A stretch of DNA of 39,993 nucleotides. Source: Acidobacteriota bacterium. GTDB lineage: Bacteria > Acidobacteriota > UBA6911 > RPQK01 > JADFOI01. Every line of letters begins with the position of its first letter. The stretch's first letter is position 1. The position numbers and the translations under genes are program-made. Below the pieces are notes generated by a model. It did no database searches, was not told the origin of the DNA, and saw nothing but the letters and a program-made list of their open reading frames with translations. Location of the stretch: NCBI GenBank assembly GCA_022562935.1, contig JADFOI010000016.1:1-39993 (forward strand), written 5' to 3'. Shown one piece after another: positions 850 through 26,549 of the stretch.

Positions 850-1123
850 AGGAGCCTGTCCGAGTAATAGGTGGGGTCGCGCGGATGGGGCTTGCGTGGG
901 CAGGTTGAGGAGCGAGGAGGAGGCGATGCAGGGACATCGGCGACGACAAGCGACGAAGAGATGCACCGCAACCCCCGTCCGCCCAAAGGGTTACGGCGGC
1001 ACCGGGTCATCTACGGTGTTGGCGCTCCTCGACAATGTCCAGACATTGCCTGCGTCGCGCCGCCTGGTATCTGACCCGGCGGCGCCTGTAACGCGACCTC
1101 ACCTATTACTCGGACAGGCTCCT
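850..1123. mobile_element. MITE-like element with 32-bp terminal inverted repeats
   Basis: The left end 850-881 (AGGAGCCTGTCCGAGTAATA...) and the right end 1092-1123 are reverse complements with one mismatch over 32 bases; the outer 24 are identical. The 274-bp body holds open frames on both strands, but none resembles a transposase. The shape is that of a non-autonomous, IS-derived element. No target-site duplication is clear; TCA flanks both sides, but this is too short to trust. It lies between the start of the DUF5916-type gene and the stop of the mannose-phosphate synthase gene, 12 bp from that stop. Confidence 0.7.
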
Positions 1124-1135
1124 CAGTCCCCGCCC

Positions 1136-1870
1136 CTATTCCCAAAAGGGCCTCCAGTACTTATAAATGAAGAGTCGGCAGAGGTGCTGTATATATTTCT
1201 TCTGTTCCGTGAGTGTGAGCTTGCTTTGGCCGAACTGGCGGTCTTTGAAGTGAATGGGAATTTCCTCAATGCGATGCAAGTTACACTTAACCATCAACTC
1301 TAAACCAATCTTGTAACCTATCGGATTCAGCTCGTAAGCTGATTCAAAGGTTTTGCGGGGAAGCGCGAAAAAGCCGGACATTGGATCCTTTACCGAGGTC
1401 AAGGGACGGGCGAGCAGTGTCGCGATTCGGCTGTTCAGCCAGCGGAAAAAACCCCAGGAGGCCTCAGTCAGGCCTCCTGGGGTATAACGGGAGCCCATCA
1501 CGAAATCTGCACCCTTCTCAATCGCAACCAGCATCTCCGGGATTTTCTCAGGGGGATGACTGAGATCGGCGTCCATAACCACAAGAACGTCACCACGAGC
1601 CAATTTGAGTCCCTCCAGTACGGCCCGGCTTAGACCTCGTTCTTCCTTTCGCACCACGAGTGTAATCCAGTCCCTGTCCATTGACGAGACCAGCTCTTGG
1701 GTGCCGTCCTGACTGTCGTCGTCCATAATCAGCAGCTGGAGAGATAAGTGGTGCTTCTGTCGAACCTCCTCCAGTCGTTCAGTGAGCAGAGGAAGGTTTT
1801 CGACTTCTTTATAGGTCGGTACGATTACCGAGACGGAACGCCTTGAGCGCCCTTGTTGGAATTCCTGCAA
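1136..1870 (-). CDS. Polyprenyl-phosphate mannose synthase-like GT2 (Dpm1 type)
   Basis: A family 2 glycosyltransferase. Numbered from an upstream GTG at 1882 (248 codons), it has SVIVPTYKEVENLP (about 17-30), the acidic turn LLIMDDDSQDGT, the metal-binding DAD at about 104-106, DFVMGSRY, KDPMSGFFALPRKTF and QFGQSKLTL, the pattern of dolichol/polyprenol-phosphate mannose synthases. There is no C-terminal membrane anchor, so it is the short peripheral form. Expected reaction: GDP-mannose plus polyprenyl phosphate gives polyprenyl-P-mannose on the cytoplasmic face; the sugar is not proven by sequence. GTG 1882 touches the AAGGAG site, whereas TTG 1870 has GGAGG five bases upstream, so 1870 is preferred. 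It is the last gene of the operon behind three TMTC-like transferases, for which its product is the obvious donor. Confidence 0.85.
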   Translation of the reverse strand: MQEFQQGRSRRSVSVIVPTYKEVENLPLLTERLEEVRQKHHLSLQLLIMDDDSQDGTQELVSSMDRDWITLVVRKEERGLSRAVLEGLKLARGDVLVVMDADLSHPPEKIPEMLVAIEKGADFVMGSRYTPGGLTEASWGFFRWLNSRIATLLARPLTSVKDPMSGFFALPRKTFESAYELNPIGYKIGLELMVKCNLHRIEEIPIHFKDRQFGQSKLTLTEQKKYIQHLCRLFIYKYWRPFWE

Positions 1871-1885
1871 AGCTTCCTCCACTCC

Positions 1886-3922
1886 TTAGTGAACTTTCTC
1901 CGTTTCCTTCAGCAGCAGGTTCAGTTTCTGCCGGGCTCCCGGGTGGTTGGGACGACGTTCCAAGGCTGCTCGATAGTTTTCGATGGCCTCTGGTATTCTC
2001 TCCTGAGCGTTTCTCACCAGACCCAGGTAATAGTAAGACTGAGCAAATTGAGGGTTAATCTCAATGGCCTGTGATAGACGCAGTGATGCTTCTTCTGTTC
2101 GCCCAGCCTTGGCCAGAGCCAATCCCATGTTGGCATGGGCTTCGACATTCTTGGGTTCGATTTTCAGTGCCCTGAAAAAATGTGCTATCGCTTGATTCAG
2201 CCGGTCTGTTGCCATCAAGGCAAGCCCCAGATTGTTGAGGTGATTGTAAGAATCAGGTGCAATCTCGAGAGCCCGATGATACCTATCCATAGCCTCCTCA
2301 TAGCGTTCCTGGGCTGCCAACACCAAGCCCATGTTGCCGTAAGCTGGTGCATAGTTTGGATCAACCTCCAGGGCCTGGGAGAAGAGTAGGGCGGCTTCAC
2401 GAAACTTTCCCTGTCTTAGCCCCACGAGTCCCAGATTGTTGAGCGCATCGACGGAGTCCGGATTAAGCTTCAAGGTTTGAGTAAATCGCTCTACTGCTTC
2501 ATCAAGTCTTTCCTGTTCCAGCAGCACCAATCCTAGATGATTGTAGGCTGGAGCGTACTTCGGGCCGATCTTGATAGCCTCCAGGAATCGTTGCTGAGCT
2601 TGTGCAAACTCCAATTTCTTCATCGCTTCCAGTCCCAGGACATCGTGAGCTACAGAATTGTTGGGATTCACTATGAGAACATGCTCAAACAGTGCGGTGG
2701 TATTGCGCCAGTAGCTGAGCTGCACCCGGGAAAGAACTGACAACGGCATCAGCATACACAGGGCAGCTATTGCCAACCACTCTCTTTTGAAACGCAACCT
2801 TCGCATCATGTCCGTTGCACCCCAGACCGCTATAATGAAAAGACCGATGAAAGGAACGTAGGCGAAACGGTCAGCCATAGAGTGCGCTCCGACCTGGATG
2901 AGACCATTGACCGGGACCATGGTCCCCAGATACCACAACCATCCCACCACCAGATAGCGATACCTTTGATCTTGCCACCATACGACCAGGGAAATTCCCA
3001 GCAGCACCAGTGCCGCCAAAACCACCGGCCATGCTTCCAGGGAGCTTCCCGGATGGGGATAAAAAACCACCAGATCCATCGGCCACACCATCTTTTTCAG
3101 ATAAAGCCCATAGGCCAGGACGGCGTTACCCACTCGAGTCCCCAGTGGCAGCCACTCCCATGACGGGAGAGCTCCAGCCTGTGACTGCGCCTTAATCGCC
3201 ACCACACAGGCCGCTGCCACCGGAATAAACAGCGGCAGCTTCTCTGCTGCCAATTTGGGCAAGCGTTCCCAAAACTCCTTGGGGTCTTTGCCCAGCCTTC
3301 CCAGCGGCCAGTAGTCCAGCAGCAGCAGGACACAGGGCAGCGTTACCAGCATGGGCTTGGCCATCAAGCCCAGCACAAAGATGCCCATCATGCCCAGATA
3401 GCGCTCCCAGCCTGGCTTTCTTACATAGCCCACATAGGCGAGCAGGGTCAGCAGCCAAAACATTGTGCTCAGCACAGTCTTACGCTGCGACACCCAGGCC
3501 ACCGACTCCACGTTGAGCGGGTGCAAGGCAAACAGGGCTGCCACCAATGCGCTGCGCCACACCGCTCCCGTCATCTGCTGAAGTACTACGAACAAAAGGA
3601 GCACATTAGCGATATGAAGAAGTAGGTTGGTGACATGATGGCCGGCCGGGTTCAAGCCGAAAAGCTGGGTGTCCAGCATGTGAGACAGCCAAGTCAGGGG
3701 ATGCCAAAAGGCCGCCTCCATCGCTGTCAGGGACCACAGGACATTGTCCCAGCTTAAGCCCCGCTGGATCTGAGGGTAGTCGGTAAGGTAAAGGTCGTCA
3801 TCGATATTAACAAATTCGAACTGCCAAACGGTGCCGTACGCGATGAGAACAACCCCAACCAGGAGGAGGACCACCACGGATTTTCTGCCTGCCAGGTTCA
3901 CAGAGTTCTCAAGAGTATTCAC
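1886..3922 (-). CDS. TMTC-like membrane glycosyltransferase with TPR tail, copy 1
   Basis: 678 residues. The first about 400 form a polytopic GT-C-like membrane domain. An acidic DDD turn (41-43) follows the first helix, then WHPLTWLSHMLD, HPLNVESVAWVSQRK (134-148), GLMAKPMLVTLPCVLLLLDY and VFYPHP. Residues from about 415 hold seven TPR units of the LGLVLLEQERLDEAVERF type. The plan is that of eukaryotic TMTC protein O-mannosyltransferases, and bacterial relatives are usually annotated only as TPR proteins. Transfer of mannose from a polyprenyl carrier to exported proteins is inferred. GTG 3922 overlaps the stop of copy 2 (GTGA). Unlike copies 2 and 3, which read VAERKN, this copy reads VSQRKT. 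Its membrane domain is almost identical to copy 3, but its TPR part is not. Confidence 0.8.
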   Translation of the reverse strand: MNTLENSVNLAGRKSVVVLLLVGVVLIAYGTVWQFEFVNIDDDLYLTDYPQIQRGLSWDNVLWSLTAMEAAFWHPLTWLSHMLDTQLFGLNPAGHHVTNLLLHIANVLLLFVVLQQMTGAVWRSALVAALFALHPLNVESVAWVSQRKTVLSTMFWLLTLLAYVGYVRKPGWERYLGMMGIFVLGLMAKPMLVTLPCVLLLLDYWPLGRLGKDPKEFWERLPKLAAEKLPLFIPVAAACVVAIKAQSQAGALPSWEWLPLGTRVGNAVLAYGLYLKKMVWPMDLVVFYPHPGSSLEAWPVVLAALVLLGISLVVWWQDQRYRYLVVGWLWYLGTMVPVNGLIQVGAHSMADRFAYVPFIGLFIIAVWGATDMMRRLRFKREWLAIAALCMLMPLSVLSRVQLSYWRNTTALFEHVLIVNPNNSVAHDVLGLEAMKKLEFAQAQQRFLEAIKIGPKYAPAYNHLGLVLLEQERLDEAVERFTQTLKLNPDSVDALNNLGLVGLRQGKFREAALLFSQALEVDPNYAPAYGNMGLVLAAQERYEEAMDRYHRALEIAPDSYNHLNNLGLALMATDRLNQAIAHFFRALKIEPKNVEAHANMGLALAKAGRTEEASLRLSQAIEINPQFAQSYYYLGLVRNAQERIPEAIENYRAALERRPNHPGARQKLNLLLKETEKVH

Positions 3923-5943
3923 GGGTTAACCTTCTCGAGCAAAAGTGCCAGGCGTTGCCGGGCTTCCTGGTTGTTTGGATTCAGTTGCAGGGCTTTACGG
4001 AAGGAGGCGATGGCGTTCTCAATACTTCCTTGATCCGTTCTCACCACACCCAGATTGAAATGTGCATCCCCAAAGTCAGGCTCAATCTCAATGACCTTTG
4101 AAAAGTGTCGAGCGGCCCTCTCCAGATCACCCTCTTCCATGAACATCTTTCCCAGGTTGTTATGGGTTAGATAAGAGTAGGGAGCCAGTTCCAGAGCGCG
4201 GTGATAGTGGGTCATAGCCTCCTCTGAATGTCCTTGCAGATCCAGTGCCGCACCTAAATTGTTGTAAGCCCTAGCCTGATCGGGATTGAGGAGAAGGGAT
4301 TGGGAAAAATACGAGATGGCCTTCTCGACCTGCCCATTTCCCAACAAGAGTGTCCCCAGATTGTTGAGGGCTTCGAAGAGTTGCGGATCAATCTCCAGAG
4401 CCTTGGAAAAATGTTGGATGGCCTTCTCCCCATCTCCCTGTGCCATTCGTATGATCCCCAGGTTGTTGTGGGCATCGGCAAGGTTCGGGTTGATGTCCAA
4501 GGCTTCGGAGAAATAACGGGCAGCCCCATCGAGGTGTCCTTTTTGTTTCAGAGCGAGTCCCAGGTTGTACAGGACTTCAGGACTTTCGGGCTTGATTTCC
4601 AAGGCGATGGAAAGTTGCTCCATACCTTTATCAATTTCACCGGCTTCCAGAAAAACGGTTCCCAGGTTATTGTGAGCTAGATAGTTGTCTTCAGTGGATT
4701 GAATCGCATGTTCGAACAAGGTCACGCTGTTTTGCCAATGGGCGAGCTGCAGCCGAGTGCTGATCGAGAGCCCTAGAAGCAGCAATACACTTGCGGCGAT
4801 CCCCCACCCCTTTTTGACTTGAGAGCCATCCACCCATTGTGTACAACCCCAGACCAGTAGAATGAATAAACCGATCAGGGGTACATACATGTAGCGGTCT
4901 GCCATGGAGTGTCGCCCCACTTGGATCAAACCACTCACAGGCAACAAGGTGCCCAGGTACCAGAGCCATCCCACCAAGAGATAGGGGAATGAGGGTGTCC
5001 CCCACAACACCAGGAGGGAGAGGGTGCCGACCACCAAAATGGCCAGAATGACCTGCCCTACCGGCAGGGAGGCCTCTGGATGGGGATAGAACACCGCCAG
5101 GTCCGTGGGCCAGACCACCTTGCCCAAATAGGCCACGAAGGAGGTCAGGGCGTTGCCGAGGCGAGCAGTCAGGGAGATCTGCTGTAGAGAAGGCAAGGCT
5201 CCCAGCAGATGCTGGGCATGGATGGCCAGAATCCCACTGGCCACGGCTAGGGCAAAAAGCGGCGTTTTTTCCAGCAACAGCGTGGGCCCTTTTTGCCGAA
5301 ACTCGCTCCAGGAAAGGCCCAGTCGGCCTAGAGGCCAATAGTCCAACAGCAGCAACACGCAGGGGAGCGTGACCAGCATGGGCTTGGCCATCAGTCCCAA
5401 AACAAAGAGGACAACGACCCACAAATAACGCTGCCAGTGGGGTTTTCTCACATAGTGGACATAGGCACCCAGGGTGAGGAGCCAAAACAGCGTGCTCAGC
5501 ACGTTCTTGCGTTCCGCTACCCAGGCCACAGATTCCACATTGAGGGGGTGGAGAGCGAACAACGCCGCCACCAAGAAACTACGCCACAGGGCGCCGGTCC
5601 ACCGCTGAAGCAACCCGAAGAGGAGGAGAACATTGAATGTGTGGAGCAACAAGCTCATGAGATGATGGCCGCCAGGGTTCAATCCAAAAAGCTCATAATC
5701 GAGCATGTGGGACCACCAAGTAAGGGGATGCCAAAATCCCGCCTCCAGCGCGGTCAAGGCCCAAGCAAGGTTTGCCCAGCTCAGGCCCTTCTGGATTTGA
5801 GGATTATGGGTAACGTAGAGGTCATCATCCAGGCCCACGAACTGATGGTCCTTGACCGGGAGATAGACGATGAGGGTAGCCACGATCAAGAGCATTCCGG
5901 CCACCCATTTCGAGTGTTGACGAAAGAAGGTCAGAGTATTCAT
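3919..5943 (-). CDS. TMTC-like membrane glycosyltransferase with TPR tail, copy 2
   Basis: 674 residues with the same architecture: a membrane domain to about 400 (DDD turn, WHPLTWWSHMLD, HPLNVESVAWVAERKN, GLMAKPMLVTLPCVLLLLDY, VFYPHPEASLP), then seven TPR units with the typical LGxxxxxxGxxxxAxxxFxxAL spacing. ATG 5943 overlaps the stop of copy 3 (ATGA), and its own stop overlaps the start of copy 1, so the three are translationally coupled. Copies 1 and 2 both start with MNTL. It is the most divergent of the three in the membrane domain, having KGPTLLLEKTPLF where copies 1 and 3 have a shared ERLPKLAAEKLPLF. It has its own TPR sequence, which could mean a different protein partner. The function is inferred as for copy 1. 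Confidence 0.8.
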   Translation of the reverse strand: MNTLTFFRQHSKWVAGMLLIVATLIVYLPVKDHQFVGLDDDLYVTHNPQIQKGLSWANLAWALTALEAGFWHPLTWWSHMLDYELFGLNPGGHHLMSLLLHTFNVLLLFGLLQRWTGALWRSFLVAALFALHPLNVESVAWVAERKNVLSTLFWLLTLGAYVHYVRKPHWQRYLWVVVLFVLGLMAKPMLVTLPCVLLLLDYWPLGRLGLSWSEFRQKGPTLLLEKTPLFALAVASGILAIHAQHLLGALPSLQQISLTARLGNALTSFVAYLGKVVWPTDLAVFYPHPEASLPVGQVILAILVVGTLSLLVLWGTPSFPYLLVGWLWYLGTLLPVSGLIQVGRHSMADRYMYVPLIGLFILLVWGCTQWVDGSQVKKGWGIAASVLLLLGLSISTRLQLAHWQNSVTLFEHAIQSTEDNYLAHNNLGTVFLEAGEIDKGMEQLSIALEIKPESPEVLYNLGLALKQKGHLDGAARYFSEALDINPNLADAHNNLGIIRMAQGDGEKAIQHFSKALEIDPQLFEALNNLGTLLLGNGQVEKAISYFSQSLLLNPDQARAYNNLGAALDLQGHSEEAMTHYHRALELAPYSYLTHNNLGKMFMEEGDLERAARHFSKVIEIEPDFGDAHFNLGVVRTDQGSIENAIASFRKALQLNPNNQEARQRLALLLEKVNP

Positions 5944-7964
5944 TCCCTGGACCGAAGCCGATTGAGATTTTCCTGAGCCTCTCGGTAGTTAGGATGAATC
6001 GTTACGGCCTTCAGAAAGTGATGGACCGCCTGCTGAAAATCGCCTTTTTGGGCCAGTGCTGTTCCCAGATTGTTATGTGCCTCAGCGTGATTGGGGTTGA
6101 GTTGAAGGGCCTTCCGGTAAGCATCAATGGCCTCATCCACCTTTCCTTCTCTTTTGAGCAGAACGCCCAGATTCACGTACGCTTCCAAGTAATCAGGATT
6201 CGCTTCCACGGCCGCCAACAAATGGACCTTGGCATCACTGAAATCAGCCGTCTTGAGCAGTTCTGTCCCTAGATTGTAGTGGGCTTCGGCGAAACCCGGA
6301 CGAAGCTCCAGCGCTTTCCTGAACAACTCGATGGCCTTGGCTCTATTTCCTTTGTCGAGCATTGCGTTTCCCAGGTTTTTGTAAGCCTTCGGAAAGTTGG
6401 GATTGAGGAGCAAAGCTTGAGAAAAGTGATCGATGGCCTCATCCACTCGTCCAGCACCCAGAACGGCGAGCCCCAGATTATTGTGGGCTGCATAGGAGTC
6501 CGGCCGGATCGCAAGAGCTTGTTGATAGTGCTGGATCCCCTCGTCCAATCTGCCCTGCCACGAGAGAGCCAAACCGAGATTGTTGTGGGCGTCGGCATAG
6601 GCGGGATAAATGGAGAGTGCCCGAGTCAGATGCTCGACGGCTTTTTCGAGTTGTTTTTCCTTCGTGAACTCAATCCCCAGGGCATTGTGAGCGACTTGAT
6701 TGTTGGAGGTAACCACCAGAACATGCTCAAAGAGCGCACGGGTACTTTGCCAGTAGCTCAACTGCACTCGGGTGAGAACGGCCAATGCCAACAGCAAGCA
6801 CAGACCCGTGACTGCTACCCATGCTTTTGGGAGGTGCAGAGTCTGTGCCAACTCGGCTGCCCCCCAGACCAGAATGATGAACAGACCCATCAAAGGGACG
6901 TAGGCAAATCGATCGGCCATGGCGTGCCCACCGACCTGAATGAGACCACTGACCGGAACCAGCGTGCCTAAATACCAGAGCCAACCCACCACCAGATAGG
7001 GAGACTTTCGACCTCGGCACCAGAGGCCCAGGGAGAGGCCCCCCAAGAGCAGGGCCGCCAAAGCCACTGGCCCTGCTCCCAGGGAGCTTCCCGGATGGGG
7101 ATAAAAAACCGCCAGATCCATCGGCCACACCATCTTTTTCAGATAAAGCCCATAGGACAGGACGGCGTTGGCCACTCGAGTCCCCAGCGACAGTCCTTCC
7201 CATGACGAGAGCGCTCCAGCCTGTGATTGCGCCTCAATCGCCACCACACTCACCGCTGCCACAGGAATAAACAGCGGCAGCTTTTCTGCTGCCAATTTGG
7301 GCAAGCGTTCCCAAAACTCCTTGGAGTCTTTGCCCAGCCTTCCCAGCGGCCAATAGTCCAGCAGCAGCAGAACGCAGGGCAGGGTCACCAGCATGGGCTT
7401 GGCCATCAATCCAAGCACAAAGATTCCCATCATGCCCAGATAACGCTGCCAGCCCGGCATTTTTACATACCCCACATAGGCGAGAAGGGTGAGCAGCCAA
7501 AACAGCGTGCTCAGCACATTCTTACGCTCTGCCACCCAGGCCACCGACTCCACATTGAGCGGGTGGAGGGCAAACAAGGCGGCTACCATGGCACTGGGCC
7601 ATAGGGCCCCGGTCATTCGGTGAAGCACCCAAAAGAAAAGTACAACGTTGGCCAGGTGAAAGAGCAGGTTGGTGAGATGATGACCGGCTGGGTTTAAACC
7701 GAAAAGCTGATAGTCCAGGATGTGGGACAGCCAGGTCAGCGGGTGCCAAAAGGCCGCCTCCATTGTCGTCATTGCCCACACCACGCTGTCCCACCCTAAA
7801 CCCTGTTGGACCTGCGACACCTCCGTGACATATAAATTGTCGTCGTAGTTGATGAAGGGATAGTCCTTGACGGGCGCGTACACCAATACCACAACGGTGA
7901 TAAGCAGGAATATCGCCAGTCCTTTTTGGCTTCGCAAGGGCAGGCGAATAAACTCGATGTCCAT
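5940..7964 (-). CDS. TMTC-like membrane glycosyltransferase with TPR tail, copy 3 (first in operon)
   Basis: 674 residues and the first gene of the four-gene operon. Membrane helices fill the first about 400 residues, with the acidic DD turn at 41-42, WHPLTWLSHILD, HPLNVESVAWVAERKN (134-149) and VFYPHPGSSLG. Seven TPR units follow. Over residues 173-236 it differs from copy 1 at one position only, while the two TPR tails are clearly different; this suggests gene conversion of the membrane part. ATG 7964 has a weak GAGAG upstream. No good sigma-70 promoter was seen in the 140 bp before it. The operon order (three transferases, then a polyprenyl-P-mannose synthase) supports a lipid-linked-sugar-dependent transferase acting at the outer face of the inner membrane. 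Confidence 0.8.
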   Translation of the reverse strand: MDIEFIRLPLRSQKGLAIFLLITVVVLVYAPVKDYPFINYDDNLYVTEVSQVQQGLGWDSVVWAMTTMEAAFWHPLTWLSHILDYQLFGLNPAGHHLTNLLFHLANVVLFFWVLHRMTGALWPSAMVAALFALHPLNVESVAWVAERKNVLSTLFWLLTLLAYVGYVKMPGWQRYLGMMGIFVLGLMAKPMLVTLPCVLLLLDYWPLGRLGKDSKEFWERLPKLAAEKLPLFIPVAAVSVVAIEAQSQAGALSSWEGLSLGTRVANAVLSYGLYLKKMVWPMDLAVFYPHPGSSLGAGPVALAALLLGGLSLGLWCRGRKSPYLVVGWLWYLGTLVPVSGLIQVGGHAMADRFAYVPLMGLFIILVWGAAELAQTLHLPKAWVAVTGLCLLLALAVLTRVQLSYWQSTRALFEHVLVVTSNNQVAHNALGIEFTKEKQLEKAVEHLTRALSIYPAYADAHNNLGLALSWQGRLDEGIQHYQQALAIRPDSYAAHNNLGLAVLGAGRVDEAIDHFSQALLLNPNFPKAYKNLGNAMLDKGNRAKAIELFRKALELRPGFAEAHYNLGTELLKTADFSDAKVHLLAAVEANPDYLEAYVNLGVLLKREGKVDEAIDAYRKALQLNPNHAEAHNNLGTALAQKGDFQQAVHHFLKAVTIHPNYREAQENLNRLRSRE

Positions 7965-12635: not shown

Positions 12636-13844
12636 CTAAGGCACAAACAACTCAACCTCAACCCGGCGGTTATCGCTCTGGCCCTGAGGAGTCGCGTTAT
12701 CGGCAATGGGTTGGGTCTCGCCGGCACTCTGGGTTTCAATCCGGCCCTCGTCAATGTTCTGCTCCCGCACCAGATAGGCCTTGACTGCATCTGCCCGGCG
12801 CAGGCCCACACCTTCATTGACTTCCTCGCTCCCTCGGTCGTCCGTGTGTCCCGTCAACGTGGCCCTCAGCTGCGGATTCTGCCGTATCTTGAGCGCAATT
12901 TCATCCAACTGGGCTTTGGCCACATTATTGGGGAGATTCCCCTCCATATGTATGACGATCTTCTCACTCACCGAGAACGATTTGGTGTCGCTGGCGGCAA
13001 CGCCGCGATCATCTTCAACGGTCACGGCAACACTATGCCGGCCTCCAGCCAGTCCGCTGGTATTAATCTGCATCCGAGACGAAGACTCGGGACGCCTTTG
13101 ACCATCCAGAGTCCAAGCGTAGGTCAGAGGATCATTTTCCGGATCGCTGGCCTGGGCGCTTGCCCCTACGGTATCCCCGGCATAAACGTCGGTCTTATCA
13201 AGGGTTAACGCTACACTCGGACCCGTATTGGGCCTGGGATCAATGGTGACCGTGAATTCGCAATTGGCCGTCATTCCGTCGGTATCTCTGACGGTTACCC
13301 CGACTCGGTGATCGCCCACTGGGCGATTGATCGTTCCAAACTCAAACGAGGGCTGGTTATTGGTTACCGCTCGGCCATCCACTGTCCAGGAGTAAGTCAG
13401 GGAGTCATTATTGGGATCAGAAGCAGTAACCTGTAGGCGCCTGGATTGGCCCTCAGTGACAAGCATATTAGAGGGTTCACAGGATACGGTGGGTGCCATT
13501 GTATTCTTCCCAACCGTCAGATCTACTTCACAAATGGCCACGTGCTGCTTTTTGTCTTCCACCTCCAGGCTGACGGTGTATGTTCCTGGGCTCAGCGAAG
13601 TCGAATCGAAAACAGCCGATCCATTTTGAGCCACCAATCTTCCCTGGTCGGCGGACCAGGAAAAGGTGAGTTGATCGTTCCGATCCGGATCCGTCGCGTT
13701 AGATTGTATCGTTGTCGACTCTCCTTCGGTCAAGGAGGTCTGGTCGGCGACGCAATTGAGTATAGGAGGGCGATTTGCACAACCTCCAGCCGCTAACAAC
13801 ACTACTATACTGCCCAGTAGCAGAGGTAATCTTAGTTTACGCAT
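12636..13844 (-). CDS. OmpA-family lipoprotein with Ig/PKD-like repeats
   Basis: 402 residues from ATG 13844, which has AGGAG eight bases upstream; an upstream TTG at 13862 is less likely. A lipoprotein signal ends in LLAAGGC, with Cys22 as the lipid anchor. Three Ig/PKD-like beta domains of about 90 residues follow, each with a DPxxDxLTxxWxxDG-type strand (for example ASDPNNDSLTYSWTVDG and ASDPENDPLTYAWTLDG). The last about 100 residues are an OmpA/Pal peptidoglycan-binding domain: LTGHTDDRGSEEVNEGVGLRRADAVKAYL, then NRRVEVELFVP. It should sit in the outer membrane facing the periplasm and hold the cell wall. It has its own promoter with TATAAT at 13898-13893. The Ser/Thr-rich Ig domains are conceivable substrates of the nearby glycosyltransferases, but that is speculation. 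Confidence 0.88.
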   Translation of the reverse strand: MRKLRLPLLLGSIVVLLAAGGCANRPPILNCVADQTSLTEGESTTIQSNATDPDRNDQLTFSWSADQGRLVAQNGSAVFDSTSLSPGTYTVSLEVEDKKQHVAICEVDLTVGKNTMAPTVSCEPSNMLVTEGQSRRLQVTASDPNNDSLTYSWTVDGRAVTNNQPSFEFGTINRPVGDHRVGVTVRDTDGMTANCEFTVTIDPRPNTGPSVALTLDKTDVYAGDTVGASAQASDPENDPLTYAWTLDGQRRPESSSRMQINTSGLAGGRHSVAVTVEDDRGVAASDTKSFSVSEKIVIHMEGNLPNNVAKAQLDEIALKIRQNPQLRATLTGHTDDRGSEEVNEGVGLRRADAVKAYLVREQNIDEGRIETQSAGETQPIADNATPQGQSDNRRVEVELFVP

Positions 13845-13892
13845 TCTCTTGTCTCCTCTCAAGAAATGAGCTTAAGTGTAACATCGACCTGG

Positions 13893-25066: not shown

Positions 25067-25095
25067 CTGTTGTCCGTTGTCAGTTGTCCGTTGCC
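25067..25095. repeat. TTGTCCG/TTGTCAG short-period repeat over the aroDE stop
   Basis: Four imperfect 7-8-mer units. On the minus strand they encode the last residues of AroDE, supply its TGA (25082-25080) and form the leader of thrB. Confidence 0.7.
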
Positions 25096-26549
25096 ACCTG
25101 TTCGTTTTCCCCCGTAGCCTTGCGAATAATCTCCCTCAGCATTTGCCGCTCGGGAGAAAGGCCAGTCCAGGCAGTAAATTGAAGAGCTGCCTGTTCGACG
25201 AACATTTCCATACCCGAAATGGTTTTCAATCCTCGGCGGCACGCCAACTCCAGCAAGTGAGTTTGCTCGGGGCGATAGACCAGGTCATAGATCAGTTCAA
25301 AGTCAAGCTGATCGCTCGTTAAGGGAGAATCCTGGATATTGGGGAACTGCCCAACAGGAGTAGCATTAACGCAGAGATCTGCAGCCATGGGTAAATCAGA
25401 AAACAAAGTATAGCGGCAACCATACTGTTTGGCGAAGTGGGACACCTTATCCCGATTCCGTCCAACCACGGTCACCTCCATTCCCTGGTCCTGAAGAGCT
25501 TTCACCACAGTGTGGGCAACTCCGCCATTGCCCAAAACCAGCGCTGTCTTGCCCTGCAAGGAGCCGTGTGTCTTGAGTGCATGGAGAAAGCCCGGATAGT
25601 CGGTATTTAGACCCTCCCATTGGGAGTTCCTTTTCACCAAGGTGTTCAGGGAATCAACGGGAGACGTCTTCTGCTGGACGACTTTCAGGACGTCGGTTTT
25701 AAAGGGTAGGGTTACACTAAATCCCTGGAAGCAAAGTCGGCTCTTCTCGATGTAGTCAAACCAGACCCCAACATCGTCCAGTGGAAAAGGAAGGTAGATC
25801 TTTTCCAATTGGTGGTGTTGAAAGAGCTGGTTGTGGATATCCGGAGACAGCGAGTGTACGATCGGATTTCCCATCAAACCATAGAACAGGGGAGGACTCG
25901 TCCAGTCGGGCAGCTGGTAGCATTCCAAGGCTTTCTCTAAGGTGAGTTGACCGGGGGCCACCTTACTGTTCTCGTTTTCCGCCACGTAAGTCCAGCTGTT
26001 TCCCAAGAATCCTCCCAGCAAGCGGGAGGGCTGACCCAAATCTCCCATCCCTAAGATGACGCAGGGAGTGGCTTCCAACGCAGATTCCATCCATTTCAGC
26101 AATGTGGCCAGTTGTTGTGTGGTGGTGACGGAGACGGCCAGCTTGATCACATCCCCGCCTGTTTCTCTCATGCTCTGCAATCGAGAGGGCAAATCTTCGG
26201 GGAAATGGTCAAAGCAATGGTAGGATCGGACGATGCGAGTGGAGGAGGGCAGGGCGGGACTTTCCTGGACATCGTGCTCCAGATCCGCCCATGCAAAGCC
26301 TGAGTGGGCAGCCTTTTGCAGCAGGTCCAGCCGATCTTGCTCCGTGCCTCGGTAATGGCCTCCCTCCCGCGAGGGACGGCAAGTGGCGATGAAGTCCGTG
26401 CCCTGATCCGGTTGAACTGAGGGTACTTGTGGCTCGGCCAGGTAATCTAGGCGAACCTCAATATAAGGAACCTGCCCCGTGTATTGGGCGATTTTCTGAG
26501 TTAAGGCGGCAAAGGAGGGATCTGCCAGCGTGAGGCAAAGATTTATCAT
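25080..26549 (-). CDS. aroDE: Bifunctional 3-dehydroquinate dehydratase / shikimate dehydrogenase
   Basis: 489 residues. Residues 1-215 are a type I dehydroquinase: YIEVRLDYL, TCRPSREGG, RIVRSYHCF with the general-base His, and GGDVIKLAV with the Schiff-base Lys. Residues 225-475 are a shikimate dehydrogenase: GNPIVHSLSPDIHN, SVTLPFKTDVL with the catalytic Lys, GLNTDYPGF with the Asp, the NADP loop VLGNGGVAHTVVKAL followed by VVGRNRDKV, and INATPVGQ-like VNATPVGQF. It converts 3-dehydroquinate to shikimate. The fused form is known from plants, chlamydiae and some other bacteria. ATG 26549 is 25 bp past the pgsA stop. The terminal ENEQVATDN is encoded by a TTGTCCG repeat, so the end was probably remodelled by it. 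Confidence 0.94.
   Translation of the reverse strand: MINLCLTLADPSFAALTQKIAQYTGQVPYIEVRLDYLAEPQVPSVQPDQGTDFIATCRPSREGGHYRGTEQDRLDLLQKAAHSGFAWADLEHDVQESPALPSSTRIVRSYHCFDHFPEDLPSRLQSMRETGGDVIKLAVSVTTTQQLATLLKWMESALEATPCVILGMGDLGQPSRLLGGFLGNSWTYVAENENSKVAPGQLTLEKALECYQLPDWTSPPLFYGLMGNPIVHSLSPDIHNQLFQHHQLEKIYLPFPLDDVGVWFDYIEKSRLCFQGFSVTLPFKTDVLKVVQQKTSPVDSLNTLVKRNSQWEGLNTDYPGFLHALKTHGSLQGKTALVLGNGGVAHTVVKALQDQGMEVTVVGRNRDKVSHFAKQYGCRYTLFSDLPMAADLCVNATPVGQFPNIQDSPLTSDQLDFELIYDLVYRPEQTHLLELACRRGLKTISGMEMFVEQAALQFTAWTGLSPERQMLREIIRKATGENEQVATDN

Follow-up and report, generated by a model that had tools for sequence, protein, structure and literature searches.

Three tandem TMTC-like proteins and a Dpm1-type glycosyltransferase in an Acidobacteriota operon suggest a protein O-glycosylation system

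Described systems and the layout of the locus

TMTC1-4 (CAZy GT105), the animal cadherin O-mannosyltransferases, consist of an 11-TM GT-C core with TPRs on the outer side. The motifs reported for this family are M1 (DD) and M2 (SHKSYRP) in EL1, M3 (RxD) in EL2, M4 (KE) in EL3, M5 (DW) in EL4, M6 (PxxP) in TM9 and M7 (ERxxY) in EL5, and the acids of KE and DW were modelled as metal ligands (PMC7801869). The same study had already noted full-length prokaryotic homologues in 2021, without operon or pilin context (PMC7801869). It was the only paper returned by our literature search, which covered bacterial TMTC operons, TMTCs together with pilins, and O-mannosylation in Acidobacteriota and left subscription papers mostly outside its scope; within that scope, no published description was found of the operon, donor-synthase pairing, missing metal ligands or pilin linkage reported here. 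Related arrangements are known from other bacteria. In the three-component Gtr systems, a polyprenyl-P-sugar synthase feeds a periplasmic GT-C enzyme, and the acceptor is a polysaccharide (PMC11127046). In Pseudomonas, the pilin gene is accompanied by tfpO or tfpW, and TfpW is also a GT-C enzyme (PMC11841053). FlmG of Caulobacter shows that a TPR domain can guide the choice of acceptor in bacteria: there it binds the acceptor for the glycosyltransferase domain (PMC7591256).

The operon described here lies on the minus strand of the window, by which we mean the whole stretch of 39,993 nucleotides that was analysed. According to the ORF list, its first gene encodes TMTC-like transferase C (5940-7964, 674 aa), which combines a GT-C membrane core (about residues 1-404) with seven TPRs and a capping helix (423-673). 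Transferases B (3919-5943, 674 aa) and A (1886-3922, 678 aa, GTG start) have the same layout and are followed by the gene for a soluble Dpm1-type GT2 (1136-1882, 248 aa), a probable polyprenyl-phosphate-mannose synthase. Overlaps of 4 nt were found at both the C/B and B/A junctions, and the GT2 gene starts with a GTG located 3 nt past the stop codon of A. A possible alternative start is the TTG at 1870, which has a better placed GGAGG ahead of it. Identity among A, B and C is 60-73% in the membrane domains (residues 1-415) and only about 35-42% in the TPR tails. In the congener G002 the order is kept, with two transferases instead of three (Lhr, two TMTC-like genes, GT2, TyrRS, ftsZ, ftsA, ftsQ, Mur ligase), the gene names having been transferred from the syntenic contig C74 of the window's own genome, which aligns to G002 at 93%. 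This matching gene order indicated a conserved locus rather than a chance pattern of ORFs. The ORF coordinates agreed with the earlier note, which had described three overlapping membrane-GT/TPR genes followed by a Dpm1-type GT2.

Several other features were observed at or near the locus. Contig C74 carries a second, 90% identical copy of the GT2 (772-1482), adjoining a transferase TPR tail and placed in the TyrRS-ftsZ-ftsA-ftsQ context that G002 holds in one locus; this reflects either duplication of the operon or an assembly that mixes strains. Window positions 850-1123, immediately past the end of the GT2 gene, form a MITE-like element with 32-bp terminal inverted repeats that are 97% complementary and 210 nt apart. 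One near-full copy (96%) occurs on contig C38 of the same genome, and about 50 partial copies per genome, mostly of the core near 881-1002, occur in all three genomes of the genus. The element has no Rfam family, and an Rfam search of the window gave zero matches. A CBM9-like exported protein (291-776) stops early near the contig end and is possibly a truncated gene, and positions 25080-26549 encode a fusion of type I 3-dehydroquinase and shikimate dehydrogenase. In the congener G001, by reading of the sequence, a GT9 heptosyltransferase-like gene (L144:409-1638) lies between Lhr and the transferase, and its product starts with MDIEFVRL, nearly as protein C does (MDIEFIRL).

Membrane core and TMTC motifs

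The AlphaFold model of the membrane core, built with 54 sequences, reached a pLDDT of 87.1 and a pTM of 0.90, and the full-length model (88.8 and 0.81) added the TPRs and capping helix. When the core model was compared with the PDB by Foldseek, ArnT was the best match (E 2.9e-4), followed by PglB, human, yeast and archaeal OST, Pmt4, ALG9, AftA, AftB, Pmt1-Pmt2, DPY19 and ALG6. All but one of the first 32 matches were GT-C enzymes, the exception being a GPI-transamidase chain, and TM-scores to GT-C structures were modest (0.33-0.50). When the membrane alignment of 54 members was used as a profile against the PDB, no sequence match resulted, and full-length PDB and NCBIfam searches were dominated by TPR matches. 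Reading the helices of the model yielded 11 TM segments and assigned residues 260-279 to a juxtamembrane helix between TM7 and TM8. The predicted cytoplasmic loops were richer in positive charges (13, 10 and 16 in 67 residues, against 7, 7 and 8 in 186 on the other side), a bias that puts both the catalytic loops and the TPRs on the periplasmic side. The predicted GT-C fold, together with the conserved acidic and basic residues described below, bore out the expectation of a GT-C core with acidic active-site residues and supported, at the level of a structural model, the reading of the three proteins as transferases.

Residues D41-D42, R147, K189, P337, D351-R352 and Y355 of the window family sit in the TMTC motif loops, so that DD in EL1, the R of RxD in EL2, the K of KE in EL3, the P in TM9 and (D/E)RxxY in EL5 occupy the same places as in TMTC1-4. 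Among 54 relatives, D41, R147, K189, D351, R352 and Y355 were invariant and D42 nearly so, as were Y288 (invariant), P190 (nearly invariant) and P337 (one or the other). In contrast to TMTC1-4, both metal-ligand acids are absent from the window proteins, KE of M4 being replaced by KP and DW of M5 by FY. The TM7-TM8 loop domain PF08409 (DUF1736) was not matched by any window protein, even at E up to 1, or by any of the 54 relatives at 0.01; these absences were judged from direct scans, as a genome-wide profile search was silent even in 14 controls. The PMT_2 profile (PF13231) matched B above its gathering score (29.1 bits) and 37 of the 54 relatives, while A and C, taken singly, did not exceed the cut-off.

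Comparison of about 45 relatives separated three classes. Class I, the window type, carries WHPLTWLSHMLD, ESVAWVAERK, AKPMLVTLP, FYPHP and ADRYTYVP, and class II carries HYWPVTYTTFWLE, AKTVVVTLP, VIYPLW and ADRFQYLAG. Class III, the nearest of the three to canonical TMTCs, has YRPV, GRAE or GRKD, AKE and DY, with ERFLF in the copy on contig C88 of the window's own genome; this copy scored only 13 bits against PF08409 (cut-off 27). M4, M5 and PF08409 ruled out an assignment of the window proteins as canonical TMTCs, and, judged from their sequences, they are a distinct bacterial subfamily of non-canonical members. The label TMTC-like, given in the earlier note, rests on architecture (a GT-C membrane core followed by TPRs), topology and partial motifs, all of which were confirmed; it does not extend to PF08409, KE or DW. 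The class III gene on C88 (1226-2437), a fourth TMTC-like gene with canonical KE, DY and ERxxF residues, is arranged head-to-head with another GT2, and the same pair was seen on contig C221 of G002.

Donor synthase pairing and TPR tails

The GT2 domain (PF00535, 101 bits) had as its best PDB relative the dolichol-phosphate-mannose synthase (DPMS) of P. furiosus (5mlz, E 6e-51) and was much less close to ArnC (3e-18) and GtrB (3e-11). The alignment to 5mlz covered the whole GT2 domain (224 residues) and kept the catalytic motifs in the DxD, GSRY, DPMSGFF and terminal SKL regions, which identified the protein as Dpm1-type. Unlike 5mlz, the window GT2 has no C-terminal membrane domain, a layout that we take to be closer to soluble Dpm1. 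A mannose-1-phosphate guanylyltransferase homologue is present in the genome, consistent with a GDP-mannose route.

Dpm1-type matches at 1e-30 were found in 34 of 396 Acidobacteriota genomes. A TMTC-like gene lay within 1 kb of 14 of the 17 GT2s scoring at least 190 bits, as against 1 of 30 weaker GT2s (Fisher p 3e-8), the counts referring to loci read from related and thus non-independent genomes. Among the exceptions, the C74 copy of the window's own genome is interrupted directly behind a TPR tail that shares 82% protein identity with the tail of A, which indicated a true pair; G225 is on a 4-kb contig, and G195 is a real exception. The expectation that these genes would co-occur elsewhere was thereby upheld within the Acidobacteriota. 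Chance adjacency in GT2-rich genomes was rejected as an explanation, since more distant Dpm1-type or generic GT2s adjoin TMTC-like genes in only that single case of 30. Linked GT2s fell mostly in one clade (98/97), with class I (in the window genus) and class II partners, and G003 represented a separate GT2/transferase pairing. Dpm1 as a universal partner was also rejected: outside Acidobacteriota, class I arrays are without a Dpm1-type GT2, and another GT2 family, only remotely like DPMS, abuts them in 13 of 78 loci. The pairing of a GT2 with these transferases therefore seems to have arisen more than once. Within the same family, G004 and G005 have the transferases and lack the Dpm1-type GT2, indicating that this partner is not obligatory. 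A separate arrangement was observed in G054, where an 895-aa fusion (L146:3230-5917) joins a Dpm1-type GT2, a GtrA/DPMS membrane domain and a PMT_2 GT-C domain, uniting donor synthase, possible flippase and transferase in a single chain.

The two halves of the transferases had different histories. At the nucleotide level, C and A were 85-97% identical over codons 126-300 and fell to about 40-55% identity across the TPR tails. The tail of A, which is common to G002 and the C74 copy, was 86% identical to that of the second G002 copy, whereas its membrane domain, homogenised with that of C, shared only 71% with that copy and 73% with C. Conversely, C and the first G002 copy shared 82% in the membrane domain and only 37% in the tails, and the tail of B had its own counterpart in G004 (60%). 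These comparisons show that the membrane (catalytic) halves are homogenised or exchanged while the TPR tails persist independently, as expected if the tails set specificity. The notion of distinct TPR parts, put forward earlier, thus gained support as far as modularity is concerned. FlmG offers a functional parallel for the tails and differs in being a cytoplasmic GT-B enzyme with an unrelated catalytic domain.

Candidate acceptors and alternative functions

In other phyla, the neighbours scanned around class I arrays included GT2s (20 of 111), methyltransferases (12) and genes for type IV pilins (7). Among the loci examined, 8 of 15 major pilins were encoded directly upstream of a transferase and in the same orientation, compared with 0.65 expected (p 2e-8), and one locus (L058) had pilin, TMTC, TMTC and GT2 in a row. 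We extended the count to 31 whole Desulfobacterota genomes picked for transferases, not pilins, seven of which had given the first sighting. Here, a class I transferase was no more than 1 kb away from 13 of the 48 type IV pilin genes, where 0.24 would be expected, and no more than 5 kb away from 21 of them, against an expectation of 0.76. The closer spacing occurred in 11 of the 29 genomes with pilin hits, and in ten of these the transferase gene follows the pilin gene in the same direction. This linkage points to the major type IV pilin as the most likely acceptor of the relatives in many Desulfobacterota. The tie between transferase and pilin gene recalls TfpW/TfpO, to which these proteins are likened by description only; the window operon differs in its TPR tails and tandem copies, and no pilin gene lies next to it.

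For the window organism, the candidates are pilins, with 19 prepilin-like matches in its genome, and a nearby lipoprotein with PKD repeats and an OmpA domain (12636-13862, minus strand). The latter is encoded on the same strand as the operon, past the Lhr gene in both the window and G002, and has a lipobox (LAAGGC) and a bacterial cadherin-like Pfam match. Since cadherins are the substrates of animal TMTCs, it is a candidate, by position alone.

We lean, by a little more than even judgement, towards the operon being a dedicated protein O-glycosylation system with a donor synthase, three GT-C transferases and TPR-based acceptor recruitment. By homology, the soluble GT2 would move mannose from GDP-mannose to polyprenyl phosphate at the cytoplasmic face, and the lipid-linked sugar would then cross the inner membrane; no GtrA- or MATE-type flippase gene was found among the scanned operon neighbours. 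From the fold prediction and conserved residues, the three GT-C cores would use their periplasmic loops to glycosylate Ser/Thr residues of exported proteins with this sugar. The periplasmic TPR superhelices, which have diverged from one another, may each recruit their own acceptors, a role in keeping with the modular evolution observed. Mannose is the presumptive sugar from the likeness of the GT2 to DPMS, as Ser/Thr proteins are the presumptive acceptors in the window organism, and the donor could also serve other PMT-family enzymes encoded in the genome. Against an O-glycosylation role stand the lost metal-ligand acids, the modest TM-scores, the missing Dpm1-type GT2 in G004 and G005, and the lack of an adjacent flippase or pilin gene.

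The main rival is a Gtr-like system in which a polyprenyl-P-sugar synthase and periplasmic GT-C enzymes decorate envelope polysaccharide or LPS, the TPRs binding polysaccharide machinery. It shares the logic of donor synthase and GT-C enzyme (PMC11127046), and the GT2 and methyltransferase neighbours in other phyla and the GT9-like gene of G001 would suit it. We nevertheless consider it rather unlikely, given the strong pilin linkage of the relatives, the TMTC-like architecture, the large periplasmic TPR domains, which are typical protein-binding modules, and the scan of operon neighbours, in which no adjoining polysaccharide gene cluster was found. The window operon also departs from Gtr systems in its three TPR-bearing transferases and in having no flippase gene among those neighbours.

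Protein glycosylation with a donor other than mannose, such as glucose or a modified hexose, would require the GT2 to be Dpm1-like in sequence only. Class I relatives in other phyla do pair with a GT2 only remotely like DPMS, and their methyltransferase neighbours suggest modified sugars there; the window GT2 itself is far closer to DPMS than to ArnC or GtrB, and the genome has a GDP-mannose route, which makes this donor quite improbable. TPR proteins of other kinds are scaffolds in pilus assembly. By that precedent, and with both metal-ligand acids lost, the three proteins might have retained the GT-C fold, lost transferase function and become membrane-anchored TPR scaffolds, an explanation that we regard as very unlikely because D41, R147, K189, D351 and R352 are conserved across 54 divergent relatives and the pairing with GT2 genes is repeated.

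Returning to O-glycosylation, a broader proposal can be offered only tentatively: a widespread bacterial protein-glycosylation class of tandem TMTC-like transferases lacking the metal-ligand acids, supplied by several polyprenyl-P-sugar synthases, with exchangeable TPR tails setting specificity for type IV pilins in Desulfobacterota and for other envelope proteins, perhaps Ig/cadherin-like ones, in Acidobacteriota. As a family of animal O-mannosyltransferases, TMTCs were recognised only recently, and their bacterial relatives have had no assigned function. An operon with its own donor synthase, together with pilin-linked relatives, would provide a simple genetic system for TPR recognition and enzyme mechanism, and it brings forward a candidate class of glycosylation, of pilins and of envelope proteins, in phyla of environmental importance.
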